Part shown: in pieces, positions 15,539-42,870 of the stretch
Layout: every line of letters starts with the position of its first letter
Numbering within the stretch: position 1 is the first letter of the stretch
Source: Draconibacterium orientale
GTDB taxonomy: Bacteria > Bacteroidota > Bacteroidia > Bacteroidales > JAIFNL01
DNA length: 50,922 bases
Reading direction: 5' to 3'
Assembly: GCA_022729915.1 (NCBI GenBank)
Contig: DZBP01000004.1
Span: 1 to 50,922 of the forward strand
Position numbers and translations under genes: made by a program
Notes under the pieces: model-generated
What the model was told of the DNA's origin: nothing
The model's database searches: none
What the model saw: the letters and a program-made list of their open reading frames with translations, nothing else

Positions 15539-16894
15539 ATGTTAAGAAAAATAAAAACATTTGTTCAAAACAATTCTTTATTTGAAACAAACGATAAAAT
15601 ATTATTGGCACTAAGCGGTGGAATTGATTCAATTGTATTGTTGGATTTACTACAAAAAATGAACTGCAACTTTGCAGCCGCTCACTGCAATTTTAACTTA
15701 CGAGGCGAAGAATCAGACAGCGATGAAGCTTTTGTAACTAGTTTATGCGAGAAAAGAAATATCCGTTTATTTAAAATTTCTTTTGCTACACAAACTTACG
15801 CCAATGAAAAAAAAATATCAATTCAAATGGCAGCTCGCGAATTAAGATACAATTGGTTTGAAAAAATATTAAACGATAATCAATTAAAATACATTGCTTT
15901 AGCGCATCATTCAGGCGACGTTGTAGAGACATTTCACATCAATTTGAGTAGAGGAACCGGAATTAAAGGTATAAGTGGAATAAAGGCAAAAACAGGCAAT
16001 TTAATTCGACCATTACTTTTTGCAACTAGGCAAGAAATAATTGATTATCAAACATGTAATCAATTAACTTACAGAGAAGATAGTAGCAATTCGTCAGTAA
16101 AATATGCTCGCAACAAGATACGGCACGAAATTATTCCAAACTTTGCAAAAATAAATCCAGCTTACAACCAAAATATACTAAAAAGTATAGAAAATTTGCA
16201 CGAAGTAGAAAAAATTTATAACCAACAAATAGAAGAAAAACGCAAAGAAATAGTAAAATATGACAATGCATTGTGCAAAATTGATATTACTAAATTACTA
16301 AATACGGCAGCTCCAAAAACATTTCTATATGAGTTTATAAAAGAATTTGGGTTTGAAAGTGAAATTCTAGCACAAATATTTGAATCAATTAATAATCAAT
16401 CGGGTAATGAATTTTTTTCTGAGAATTTCATTCTTTTAAAAAATAGGAATGAATTTGTAATATCAAAAAAAGAAAACAGGCAAAAAGTAGAAGTTTTAAT
16501 TGATGAAAATTGTTCGGTTTTAAAAATAAACGAGTTAAATTTATTTTTATCAAAAATAGACAAAAATGAGAATTTTATTCTAACAAAAAAACAAGAAATA
16601 GCATTGCTTGACTTTGAAAAAATTGAATTTCCAATAAAGTTAACAAACTGGGAAGCAGGAGATTATTTTTTTCCATTAGGAATGAAGAAACGAAAAAAAC
16701 TGTCTGATTTTTTTATTGACAACAAGTATTCTCTTTTTGAAAAGCAACAACAAATAATTTTAAAATCAAACGATAAAATCGTTTGGATACTTGGAAAACA
16801 GATAGATGACCGATACAAAATAAGTGAAACAACAAAAAAAATCTTACAAATTGAAATAAAAACTGATTTTTTTATAAATTTGCAAGAAAAATAA
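15539..16894 (+). CDS. tilS: tRNA(Ile)-lysidine synthase TilS
   Basis: LALSGGIDSIVLLDLL PP-loop, AAHCNFNLRGEESDSDEAFV, ALAHHSGDVVETFHINLSRGTGIKGI, YARNKIRHEIIP. Confidence 0.97.
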   Translation: MLRKIKTFVQNNSLFETNDKILLALSGGIDSIVLLDLLQKMNCNFAAAHCNFNLRGEESDSDEAFVTSLCEKRNIRLFKISFATQTYANEKKISIQMAARELRYNWFEKILNDNQLKYIALAHHSGDVVETFHINLSRGTGIKGISGIKAKTGNLIRPLLFATRQEIIDYQTCNQLTYREDSSNSSVKYARNKIRHEIIPNFAKINPAYNQNILKSIENLHEVEKIYNQQIEEKRKEIVKYDNALCKIDITKLLNTAAPKTFLYEFIKEFGFESEILAQIFESINNQSGNEFFSENFILLKNRNEFVISKKENRQKVEVLIDENCSVLKINELNLFLSKIDKNENFILTKKQEIALLDFEKIEFPIKLTNWEAGDYFFPLGMKKRKKLSDFFIDNKYSLFEKQQQIILKSNDKIVWILGKQIDDRYKISETTKKILQIEIKTDFFINLQEK

Positions 16895-39036: not shown

Positions 39037-39792
39037 TTAAGGTAAATTTTTAATTCGTATTTCGATAGATTTGTCATCGCTCAGCAATTTCAAAAGCTCA
39101 TTTGTATCTGTTTTTCCAAAATGGTATGGATAAAGAATTTTGGGTTTAAACATACGTGCAGAATTTGCACACATTTCAACACTCATGGTATAAGGTAAGT
39201 TCATTGGCAAAAAAGCAACGTCAATATCTTTGAAATCAGACATTTCAGGAATATCCTCCGTATCGCCAGCTACATAAATCCGTTTATCTGCAAAAGTTAA
39301 AATATAGCCATTTCCATTTCCTTTTGGGTGGTAATGCTCGCCGTTAGAACGTTTATTTACAATATTATAGGCAGGAACTGTTTCTATTTTAAACAATTCT
39401 AAATCGTAATTTTGTCCATTTTGCAAAATAATAATACCGTTTTTTTTATTCAACAAATTGGCACAAATTTGTGTGATTACAAATTTTGTACCTTCTTTCT
39501 TTGTTTTATTCAAAGCCAATGTATCAAAATGATCGCCATGCTCATGTGTAATAAGCACAATATCAGCCTTTGGCAATAAACTATAATCAAATTCCCGTTC
39601 GGTTGGGTCTATCTGAATTACTTTATTTTTATACTCAAACATCAAGCTTGCATGCCCAACAAAGTGCATAATTAAATTACCTTCTGAGGTTTTAATAGTA
39701 TCTTTTTCTATTACTTTTTGGCAGTAAATATTTTCCATAAATGCGAAAAATAAAATAAATAAAAAAGTAGATATAATTAATATTTTTTTCAT
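39037..39792 (-). CDS. exported MBL-fold metal-dependent hydrolase (UlaG-like)
   Basis: signal peptide; FVGHASLMFEYKNKVIQIDP, ADIVLITHEHGDHFD, YVAGDTEDIPEM. Confidence 0.92.
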   Translation of the reverse strand: MKKILIISTFLFILFFAFMENIYCQKVIEKDTIKTSEGNLIMHFVGHASLMFEYKNKVIQIDPTEREFDYSLLPKADIVLITHEHGDHFDTLALNKTKKEGTKFVITQICANLLNKKNGIIILQNGQNYDLELFKIETVPAYNIVNKRSNGEHYHPKGNGNGYILTFADKRIYVAGDTEDIPEMSDFKDIDVAFLPMNLPYTMSVEMCANSARMFKPKILYPYHFGKTDTNELLKLLSDDKSIEIRIKNLP

Positions 39793-39813: not shown

Positions 39814-40485
39814 TTATTGAGTTTGTTTTTTTGCTTGATGATTTAAAATTACATCAAAATAAGTTGTATCCCAAAAATTGGAAAATTGAGAATAATTAAC
39901 TTCCTTATTTTCAAATTTATAAATATCGGTTTGAAAAACATCTTTAAAAACGTGCCAAATAATTTCGGCACAATACATTTGAGTCGAATCCTTCATGTCG
40001 AAGCTATAATCAAATGGCACTTTTGTACTTAAATAGTACAAACCACGCTGGCTCACTTTGTACAAATCAGAAGTATCGCATTTATTAAATCGAACAATAA
40101 TCACCGAGTTTTGATGACTGGCTGCAACGTAATCATCAAAATTTTGTTTCTGAACACCTTCAAATGTAAAATAAGAACTTGATTCAGAATGAATTACACA
40201 CAAACTATCTGATGTTTTTTGAATAATTCCGCAATGCGAAATTTTATATTTTTCATTAAAAAGATTGACTATATAATCAGAAGCCAGGCCAAAGCCACGT
40301 CGCAAAATTATATCACCATTTTTTAATTTTTGTTTTTCTTGCAATGAAAAAATATAAGAATTAGTCCTTTCCTTTGATAATTCATTTTTATCGTAAAAAT
40401 TCCAGAAAATATAAAACAATAAAACTAAAATTACTAAAAAAAAGGAAAAATAAAGGGCAATTTTCTGTATTTTAAAAGCAATCAT
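39814..40485 (-). CDS. YiiX/YebB-like (permuted papain-fold, NlpC/P60 superfamily) protein
   Basis: N-terminal TM; GDIILRRGFGLASDYIVNLFNEKYKISHCGIIQK, MYCAEIIWHVFKDV. Confidence 0.82.
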   Translation of the reverse strand: MIAFKIQKIALYFSFFLVILVLLFYIFWNFYDKNELSKERTNSYIFSLQEKQKLKNGDIILRRGFGLASDYIVNLFNEKYKISHCGIIQKTSDSLCVIHSESSSYFTFEGVQKQNFDDYVAASHQNSVIIVRFNKCDTSDLYKVSQRGLYYLSTKVPFDYSFDMKDSTQMYCAEIIWHVFKDVFQTDIYKFENKEVNYSQFSNFWDTTYFDVILNHQAKKQTQ

Positions 40486-40636: not shown

Positions 40637-41386
40637 ATGGAATTCAACAATTTTTTCTACATAGGAATAGACGATACCGATAATGCAGAGACTCGTGGTA
40701 CTGGCTTTAGAGCTAGACAGTTAGCTGCTATTTTAATAGAAAAAAAATTAGCAGATGTGTTTAGCGTTTCGCGGCATCAATTGTTTTTCGACCCCCGTGT
40801 GCCTTTTACTTCACACAATAGCTCGCTTTGTATAGAATTGAAAGCTAATGATTTAGAAGCACTAAAAGAAGTTTCTAAAAAATTTTTGTTAGAAGTAGCT
40901 GCTGAGGGCTCAGATGTGGGTTTGTGCATTGCCCGAAAAGAAAACATTAGCAACGCCGTTATTGAATTTGGAAAAAAAGCCAAAATAGACCTTGTTACGC
41001 AAAAAGAAGCTTACATTTTAGCCGAAAAAAACCAACTTTATTTGGAAGGGTTAACGGGAACAAAAGATGGAATTATAGGCGCGCTAGCCAGCGTAGGGCT
41101 TAGTTTTTTTGGCAACGACGGCAGATGTGTATGGTTAAAAGGAACCGAATTGCGAGAAATAAAAGGAGTTATGAGCATCAGAGAACTTTTACAACAATCT
41201 AATATTGATGAAGTTACTGATGAAAATGGTTTCACAGTTCCTCAAACAGATTTGCTAATGCTTGATGAATGGCTACGACCAATTTTGAAAAATCACAAAA
41301 AGATTCTAATTATAGAGGAGGTAAAAAATGAAAAATACAAGTGGAAACTTAAACCAAAAGACTTTATCAAAAAGCTTTCAAGTTGA
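40637..41386 (+). CDS. TiaS-like protein (COG1571-type, related to archaeal tRNA(Ile2) 2-agmatinylcytidine synthetase), truncated form
   Basis: FYIGIDDTDNAETRGTGFRARQLAAILIE opening, SDVGLCIA, LTGTKDGIIGALASVGLSFFGNDGRCVWLKG resembling archaeal TiaS motifs; only 249 aa with no zinc-ribbon. Confidence 0.65.
   Translation: MEFNNFFYIGIDDTDNAETRGTGFRARQLAAILIEKKLADVFSVSRHQLFFDPRVPFTSHNSSLCIELKANDLEALKEVSKKFLLEVAAEGSDVGLCIARKENISNAVIEFGKKAKIDLVTQKEAYILAEKNQLYLEGLTGTKDGIIGALASVGLSFFGNDGRCVWLKGTELREIKGVMSIRELLQQSNIDEVTDENGFTVPQTDLLMLDEWLRPILKNHKKILIIEEVKNEKYKWKLKPKDFIKKLSS
41315..41321 (+). promoter_or_regulatory. Shine-Dalgarno-like site within the TiaS-like CDS
   Basis: GAGGAGG 6 nt upstream of ATG 41328. 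Confidence 0.7.
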
Positions 41387-41903
41387 AAGCATTGCAAGTA
41401 TATTAGAAGTAATAGCCCTCTTTGGGCTGGGTGCTTTAGCTGTTGTTTTGCATATCAAAATGAAAACACCCTTGCACTTGCCCGGACATCACGGATTAGA
41501 GTTCATGGCACTGCTTATGTTAGGTAGATACGCATCAAAAAAGCCAATTGCTTCAACAATTTCGTCTTTGGGAGCAGGATTTATGCTTTTTTTCCCAATT
41601 TGGGCAGGAAAAGATCCTTTTGCAGGCATGATTTATATGCTTCCGGGCTTTATTCTCGATTTTTTGTACTATAAATTAAAAGAAAACCGCAATTTATTGC
41701 TTGTTGCACTAGTTGGCGGCTTATCTTATGCCATAATTCCGATTGTTCGATTTATAATTATGAGTGTAACTGGATTCAAATACGGAGCTTTACTAAGTGG
41801 CTTGGCATATCCTCTTTTTGCATTTACAATGTTTGGCGCACTAGGCAGTCTTTTTGGAGCTTCGCTCATGAAACAAATTCAAAACAAAATACAACAAAAA
41901 TAA
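41328..41903 (+). CDS. small polytopic membrane protein, ECF transporter S-component-like
   Basis: 191 aa, about 5-6 hydrophobic helices, LHLPGHHGLEFMALLMLGRYASKKPIASTISSLGAG; starts 59 nt inside the upstream CDS. Confidence 0.65.
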   Translation: MKNTSGNLNQKTLSKSFQVESIASILEVIALFGLGALAVVLHIKMKTPLHLPGHHGLEFMALLMLGRYASKKPIASTISSLGAGFMLFFPIWAGKDPFAGMIYMLPGFILDFLYYKLKENRNLLLVALVGGLSYAIIPIVRFIIMSVTGFKYGALLSGLAYPLFAFTMFGALGSLFGASLMKQIQNKIQQK

Positions 41904-41994: not shown

Positions 41995-42870
41995 ATGAAA
42001 AAAATACATTTATTTATAGCCGCATTTGCTTTATTCATTGCATTTACTAGTTGCAAAAACGACAAAGATTATGGTAATCCAACCATCAGTTTCAAAACAG
42101 AAACCATTTATGTAAGCGATGGTGATAGTCTTTTGGCAGGCGAAAAAGCAAAAATTGGAATTAGTGCCAATTTTAATACCAACGACAATATTACAAATTT
42201 CAAAATCAAATTAAAAACTGATACAGAGGTTATTGCATTGGATTCGGGTATTAATTCGGCTAATTTTGAATACGAATATAAATTAACTAAAACACTAGCC
42301 AATTTAGAAACACTGACATTTACTATTACTGATATAGAAGGACATACTGCCGAAATTTCGCTAGATATTCACTTAAAAGCAATTGAATATGGCGAAATTA
42401 ATTATTACACAAATATTATTTTAGGTGCGCAAAACAATACTACCAATGGTGGTTTTTATAGCTTAAGTAATAATACAATTTATAATAAAACAAATGCTGA
42501 AAATAATCAAGCGCTAATTGATTTAGTCTATTATTACAATAGTAAAAATTCAAACGCACTTAGCTCACCAGCAATGAGTTCTGACGGTGAAGTTACTGGC
42601 GTAGATGTATGGACAACTAAAAACGAAACCGTTTTTGCTGCAGATGCAAACCTAACTATCGCAAAATTTAATGCAATGCAACATGATAGTTTACTGTTAG
42701 TTGCAGCATCGCTAGCTTCTGATGCGTGGAAAGCAAAAGCAAAAGCTCTTGCAGTTGGAAATATTTATTATTTTAAAACACACAGTTCAAAGTTCGGTAT
42801 TTTCAAAGTAAATAGCGTGCAAGGAACTGATGCAGGAACAATCGAAATAGAGCTAAAAGTTCAAAAATAA
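41995..42870 (+). CDS. hypothetical lipoprotein
   Basis: signal peptide with lipobox-like FTSC; 291 aa, Ig-like/beta-rich N-terminal half. Confidence 0.7.
   Translation: MKKIHLFIAAFALFIAFTSCKNDKDYGNPTISFKTETIYVSDGDSLLAGEKAKIGISANFNTNDNITNFKIKLKTDTEVIALDSGINSANFEYEYKLTKTLANLETLTFTITDIEGHTAEISLDIHLKAIEYGEINYYTNIILGAQNNTTNGGFYSLSNNTIYNKTNAENNQALIDLVYYYNSKNSNALSSPAMSSDGEVTGVDVWTTKNETVFAADANLTIAKFNAMQHDSLLLVAASLASDAWKAKAKALAVGNIYYFKTHSSKFGIFKVNSVQGTDAGTIEIELKVQK

Follow-up and report, generated by a model that had tools for sequence, protein, structure and literature searches.

The DNA analysed here, a window of 50,922 nucleotides from Draconibacterium orientale, encodes a relative of the archaeal enzyme TiaS (TIA) whose gene overlaps that of a small membrane protein (MEM), and both belong to a five-gene cassette that is strongly linked to molybdenum and tungsten (Mo/W) genes. 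We consider it fairly probable that this cassette, with TIA and MEM as its core, takes up and activates a Mo/W-linked compound and in this way feeds tungstoenzymes of the AOR family. Because the carriers are almost only genomes with tungsten-type enzymes, the cassette probably handles a Mo/W-related nutrient rather than modifying tRNA. All five genes, including those of a lipoprotein (LIP), a putative ModE-type DNA-binding protein (MODE) and a TonB-dependent receptor (TBD), are present in the window (Table 1).

Table 1. Positions of the cassette genes and of TilS in the window
Feature	Position	Strand	Basis
TIA, TiaS-TCKD-like protein, 249 aa	40637..41386	+	ORF at exactly these coordinates
MEM, membrane protein, 191 aa, ~6 predicted helices	41328..41903	+	ORF; LPG[HRK]HG motif
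AGGAGG, ribosome-binding site of MEM	41316..41321	+	Read from the sequence, within the TIA coding sequence
LIP, lipoprotein, 291 aa, lipobox FTSC	41995..42870	+	ORF; directly after MEM
MODE, ModE-type DNA-binding protein, 123 aa	38629..39000	-	HTH domain only, without molbindin part
TBD, TonB-dependent receptor, 767 aa	36331..38634	+	Similarity to receptors in other cassettes
TilS	15539-16894		Score above cut-off

Results

Two nested samples were used, the first of 98 relatives, for the most part a single genome for each family in the window's order, and the second of 394 genomes from across the order. TIA was found in 16 of the 98 relatives and in 50 of the 394 order-wide genomes, the latter belonging to 34 families and three weak C-terminal matches being left out; a class-wide sample gave 3 out of 392. 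Beyond Bacteroidota the distribution is drawn from plasmid records only, and phage records contained no relative of TIA. The usual order at the 50 Bacteroidota loci is ModE-like regulator, TIA, MEM, lipoprotein and TonB receptor, often with a T9SS-secreted protein too. Among the 50, MEM occurs at 40 loci, the lipoprotein family at 36, the receptor at 35 and the ModE-like gene at 28, with contig ends falling inside many of the loci. The ModE-like gene usually lies immediately upstream, and the lipoprotein family, which has no Pfam or NCBIfam assignment above cut-off, comes next after MEM, in agreement with an earlier note, made from the window alone, that had tentatively counted the downstream lipoprotein as part of the module. 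The same note had suspected an undescribed module of two genes; the pair is indeed conserved, but the module is larger, with a ModE-like regulator and a TonB receptor, and is tied to Mo/W.

In the window, TBD has moved to 2 kb upstream of TIA, while in most relatives the receptor gene is directly downstream of LIP; it is 38-43% identical, across 87% or more of its length, to receptors within the cassettes of other genomes. MODE matches TIGR00637 with 72 bits (E=3e-20), a score below the 98.5-bit cut-off, and is too short for a molybdate-binding domain. Genes for a metallo-beta-lactamase-fold hydrolase (39037-39792) and a YiiX-like permuted papain-fold protein (39814-40485) separate MODE from TIA, an insertion which, among the loci read, occurs only in the window's genus. 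At eight other loci (L097, L102, L104, L106, L110, L120, L030 and L126) the ModE-like gene has a gene for a PpnP-type nucleoside phosphorylase (PF06865) nearby or immediately upstream, a weak hint that would fit the handling of nucleotide-bearing cofactor forms. A secreted family (c14) recurs downstream of the cassette (L121, L027, L108, L025, L097 and L099) and has no Pfam or PDB match; its identification as a molybdopterin-binding domain found no support and was rejected.

The link to Mo/W genes is seen both in gene neighbourhoods and in genome content. In various loci TIA has moeA, moaA, moaC, mogA, mobB-like, ThiF or AOR-family genes or wtpABC as neighbours. The wtpA copies beside TIA exceed the NCBIfam cut-offs for the tungstate protein WtpA (380.7 bits against 355 and 335.8 bits against 242.75); ModE-like and wtpA genes precede TIA in L023, L111 and L121, and wtpABC adjoins it in L121 and L044, both from carriers without MEM. 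An AOR-family (tungsten-type) gene is present in 16 out of 16 carriers and 24 out of 82 non-carriers of the first sample (p=7e-8), in 49/50 and 105/344 order-wide (p=1.5e-21), and in 33/34 and 81/262 when only genomes outside the first sample are taken (p=1.9e-14), in tests that, like those for moaA, correct only incompletely for phylogeny and anaerobic lifestyle. Part of this co-occurrence could come from shared anaerobic ecology. One member of the window's own genus (G002) has neither TIA nor an AOR gene. In addition, moaA occurs in 15 of the 16 carriers (p=1e-5), and within moaA-positive genomes the extra preference for AOR is modest (p=0.037). Since moaA is kept in most of them, the carriers are not simple cofactor auxotrophs. 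Furthermore, 24 out of the 40 AOR-positive genomes of the first sample are without TIA, which is thus not required for AOR enzymes.

Among the 98 relatives, 32 of the 40 AOR-positive genomes (e.g., G097, G080 and G086) have no match to MoaE, the large subunit of MPT synthase. TIA as a replacement for MoaE was rejected, as MoaE is equally often missing in AOR-positive genomes without TIA. The MoaA copies that were read are short (~266-281 aa) but retain the C-terminal CxxC...C, and ThiF/ThiS-like genes are found near AOR.

Residues 7-155 of TIA match the NCBIfam TiaS family (NF040849) at E=2.7e-9, with a score of only 36 bits where the equivalog cut-off is 600 bits, and methanogenesis marker 11 (TIGR03280) at E=2.3e-12, with 46.6 bits, below the cut-off of 255.8. 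The latter is the top-scoring NCBIfam family and is matched by 13 of 14 TIA members; however, TIA covers only its C-terminal half and is here a protein of Bacteroidota. A profile of the TIA family matches the solved TiaS structures 4rvz, 3amt and 3au7 (~4e-9, positions 1-151). The DDTD motif (12-15) aligns with D8-D9-T10-D11 of TiaS, and T22 aligns with T18 of A. fulgidus TiaS, the residue after which the Thr18-Cyt34 kinase domain (TCKD; PF22641) is named. The first ~150 residues of TIA are homologous, with a match above chance level, to the TCKD kinase domain of archaeal TiaS, the resemblance on which the earlier note was built. Invariant in 52 relatives are D12, D13, G21, T22, R46, N61, G145, G148, G162 and R163, so that kinase-like residues (D12, D13, T22 and R46), whose retention the note had proposed to check, are kept. 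The single-sequence structure models of both TIA (pLDDT 37) and MEM (pLDDT 59) are poor; hence we make no claim about folds and disregard a Foldseek search with the low-confidence MEM model. One genome with a full cassette has, next to a ModE-like gene, a second and divergent copy of TIA in which DDTD reads DDSE (L125, G770:C61).

The ATG of MEM lies 59 nt inside TIA just behind its ribosome-binding site, and the overlap is dual-coding; where a locus has both genes, they almost always overlap, by 44-80 nt. Of the 98 genomes, 15 of the 16 with TIA also have MEM, whereas the 82 without TIA have none, a spurious short match in G005 being discounted. The pair extends to an actinobacterium, a Pimelobacter plasmid of which carries TIA and a divergently oriented gene for a 196-aa remote homologue of MEM (hmmsearch E=5e-7; hhalign 39.6, whereas 25 other membrane proteins scored at most 19.4 and 60 shuffles at most 22.6), and the pairing that had been put forward for the two families is well borne out. 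Searches of MEM against Pfam, NCBIfam and PDB sequences gave zero matches. Basic residues occupy positions 46 and 54 of MEM in every member that is not gapped there, and all 42 members have R or K at position 141, which would fit an anionic substrate.

Where MEM is missing (G500, G581, G758, G598 and G043), another transporter is often found next to TIA: a 574-aa-type ABC transporter follows it in three of these carriers (L122, L123 and L031), and in G500 TIA occurs with wtpABC. On two plasmids of the haloarchaeon Natribaculum, TIA adjoins a FecCD-type ABC importer, and no Mo/W marker was seen among the haloarchaeal TIA neighbours. Taken together, MEM and the 574-aa-type, WtpABC and FecCD-type transporters make an inner-membrane transporter beside TIA a recurring theme. 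On the Natribaculum luteum plasmid the TIA frame (L095:10001-10681) is open, but the PLSDB table has no gene there.

Discussion

We propose that TIA may be an ATP-using phosphotransferase acting on a small molecule, because of its homology to a kinase domain and the conservation of the corresponding residues. The ModE-type regulator would control the cassette, and the TonB receptor and the lipoprotein would capture a scarce anionic Mo/W-related compound at the outer membrane, which might be a metal-ligand complex, the pyranopterin cofactor or one of its breakdown products. MEM would then pass the compound through the inner membrane, and TIA would phosphorylate or otherwise activate it with ATP in the cytosol, so that it would be trapped and would supply cofactor for AOR-family tungstoenzymes. 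We infer the direction of transport, the reaction of TIA and the substrate, and import followed by phosphorylation is suggested by analogy. The conserved pair supports the earlier idea that TIA may work with an uptake protein, but not the ECF label that had been given to the partner.

The metal branch of this scheme could also stand alone, with tungstate or molybdate taken up either free or bound in a metallophore complex, TIA freeing, modifying or recycling the carrier ligand, and pterins having no part. This seems quite possible, given that several genomes have TIA between wtpA and wtpB or next to wtpABC, that metal chelates are typical substrates of TonB receptors and FecCD-type transporters, and that in one AOR-positive genome without TIA (L050) a wtpA-type gene alone occupies the slot beside the ModE-like gene. 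However, genes for metallophore biosynthesis were not seen around the cassette, a kinase domain is no obvious tool for metal release, and several cassettes lie within moa/moe operons.

A second alternative, which we regard as doubtful, is that TIA performs a cytosolic step in the maturation of the tungsten cofactor and shares its operon by chance with an unrelated uptake system. In G391, two in-frame stops interrupt what is left of MEM next to TIA and wtpABC, which are intact, while the congener G267 has the complete cassette, and in G027 TIA occurs with mobB-like, moeA, moaA and moaC genes while MEM lies elsewhere. It is difficult to reconcile a chance association, however, with the restriction of MEM to genomes that have TIA and with the recurrence of the pair in an actinobacterium, or a maturation step with the many AOR-positive genomes that do without TIA. 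Within the preferred scheme of uptake and activation, it would be tempting to see the cassette as a salvage route for the Mo/W pyranopterin cofactor, or for forms of it that are dephosphorylated or carry a nucleotide: the receptor and lipoprotein would bind the pterin outside the cell, MEM would import it and TIA would (re)phosphorylate it. We rate this specific version as unlikely; if true, it would provide the first example of a TiaS-type kinase with a small-molecule substrate and of a bacterial system that scavenges this cofactor.

That TIA modifies tRNA like TiaS, either another tRNA or tRNA-Ile2 as a back-up for TilS, is very improbable. The homology to the TCKD is real and includes the equivalent of T18, but the FLD, OB and zinc-ribbon parts that bind tRNA are missing, TSHNSSA replaces the TiaS motif TRGNGA, the partners of TIA are transport and Mo/W genes, and the window has no tRNA gene. 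The earlier note had rightly described TIA as short and without a Cys4 zinc-ribbon: the match to TiaS ends at residue 155, the window protein has only three Cys, and no Cys is conserved in the family. The ferredoxin-like domain family PF08489 has no member in the whole window genome (G000). TilS, which the note had also recognised, makes an agmatine-dependent modification of C34 in tRNA-Ile2 by TIA unnecessary, and the suspicion that TIA was repurposed and is not the decoding enzyme agrees with all of these points.

Equally hard to sustain is the view that MEM serves an ordinary ECF transporter as its S-component, with TIA as a bystander: MEM resembles S-components in size and number of helices (~6, at low confidence), and the earlier note had called it ECF-S-like, but it has no family match and pairs strictly with TIA, and EcfT/CbiQ is missing in the window genome and in 15 of the 16 carriers, which makes such a transporter unlikely and leaves the ECF-S-like look of MEM as a resemblance only. 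EcfT/CbiQ also showed no association with TIA in a comparison across the 98 genomes, and BioY, sought as a profile reference for MEM, is not found in these genomes.

The cassette shares features with several known systems. TIA resembles the archaeal tRNA-Ile2 agmatidine synthetase TiaS in its N-terminal ~150 residues, with the DDTD motif and the T18-aligned residue, but differs in having its own ~90 C-terminal residues and in being a bacterial protein encoded within a transport operon. Bacteroidota take up cobalamin by pairs of a TonB receptor and a lipoprotein of the BtuB-BtuG type; in the cassette the receptor likewise adjoins a lipoprotein, but here the lipoprotein has no assigned family and for the inner-membrane step there is a small protein of no known class, which pairs with a TiaS-like domain. 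In several genomes TIA and a ModE-like gene occur in one operon with the tungstate ABC transporter WtpABC, whereas the usual cassette has no ABC components and includes a further stage at the outer membrane.

Tungsten enzymes are prominent in gut and anaerobic communities (PMC13328260, PMC11980592). In the literature searched, we found no paper linking TiaS with tungsten, and the main text of a 2026 classification of tungsten oxidoreductases mentions neither TonB nor TiaS (PMC13328260). As far as we found, the acquisition of tungsten or its cofactor across two membranes in Bacteroidota is undescribed, and the combination of genes in the cassette, with a TiaS kinase domain among them, appears to be so too. 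Its parts are of known kinds, except for MEM and the lipoprotein. The cassette offers co-inherited candidate genes for every stage, from the regulator and the outer and inner membranes to the cytosolic enzyme. It also shows, as far as homology goes, that a TCKD-type kinase domain exists outside tRNA modification, and it may bear on the function of methanogenesis marker 11.

Elsewhere in the window genome, near moaA and moeA, a gene at positions 8952-11504 of L040 (G000:C218) encodes an 850-aa protein with an N-terminus that by eye is of the 2Fe-2S type, and which is probably xanthine-dehydrogenase-like.
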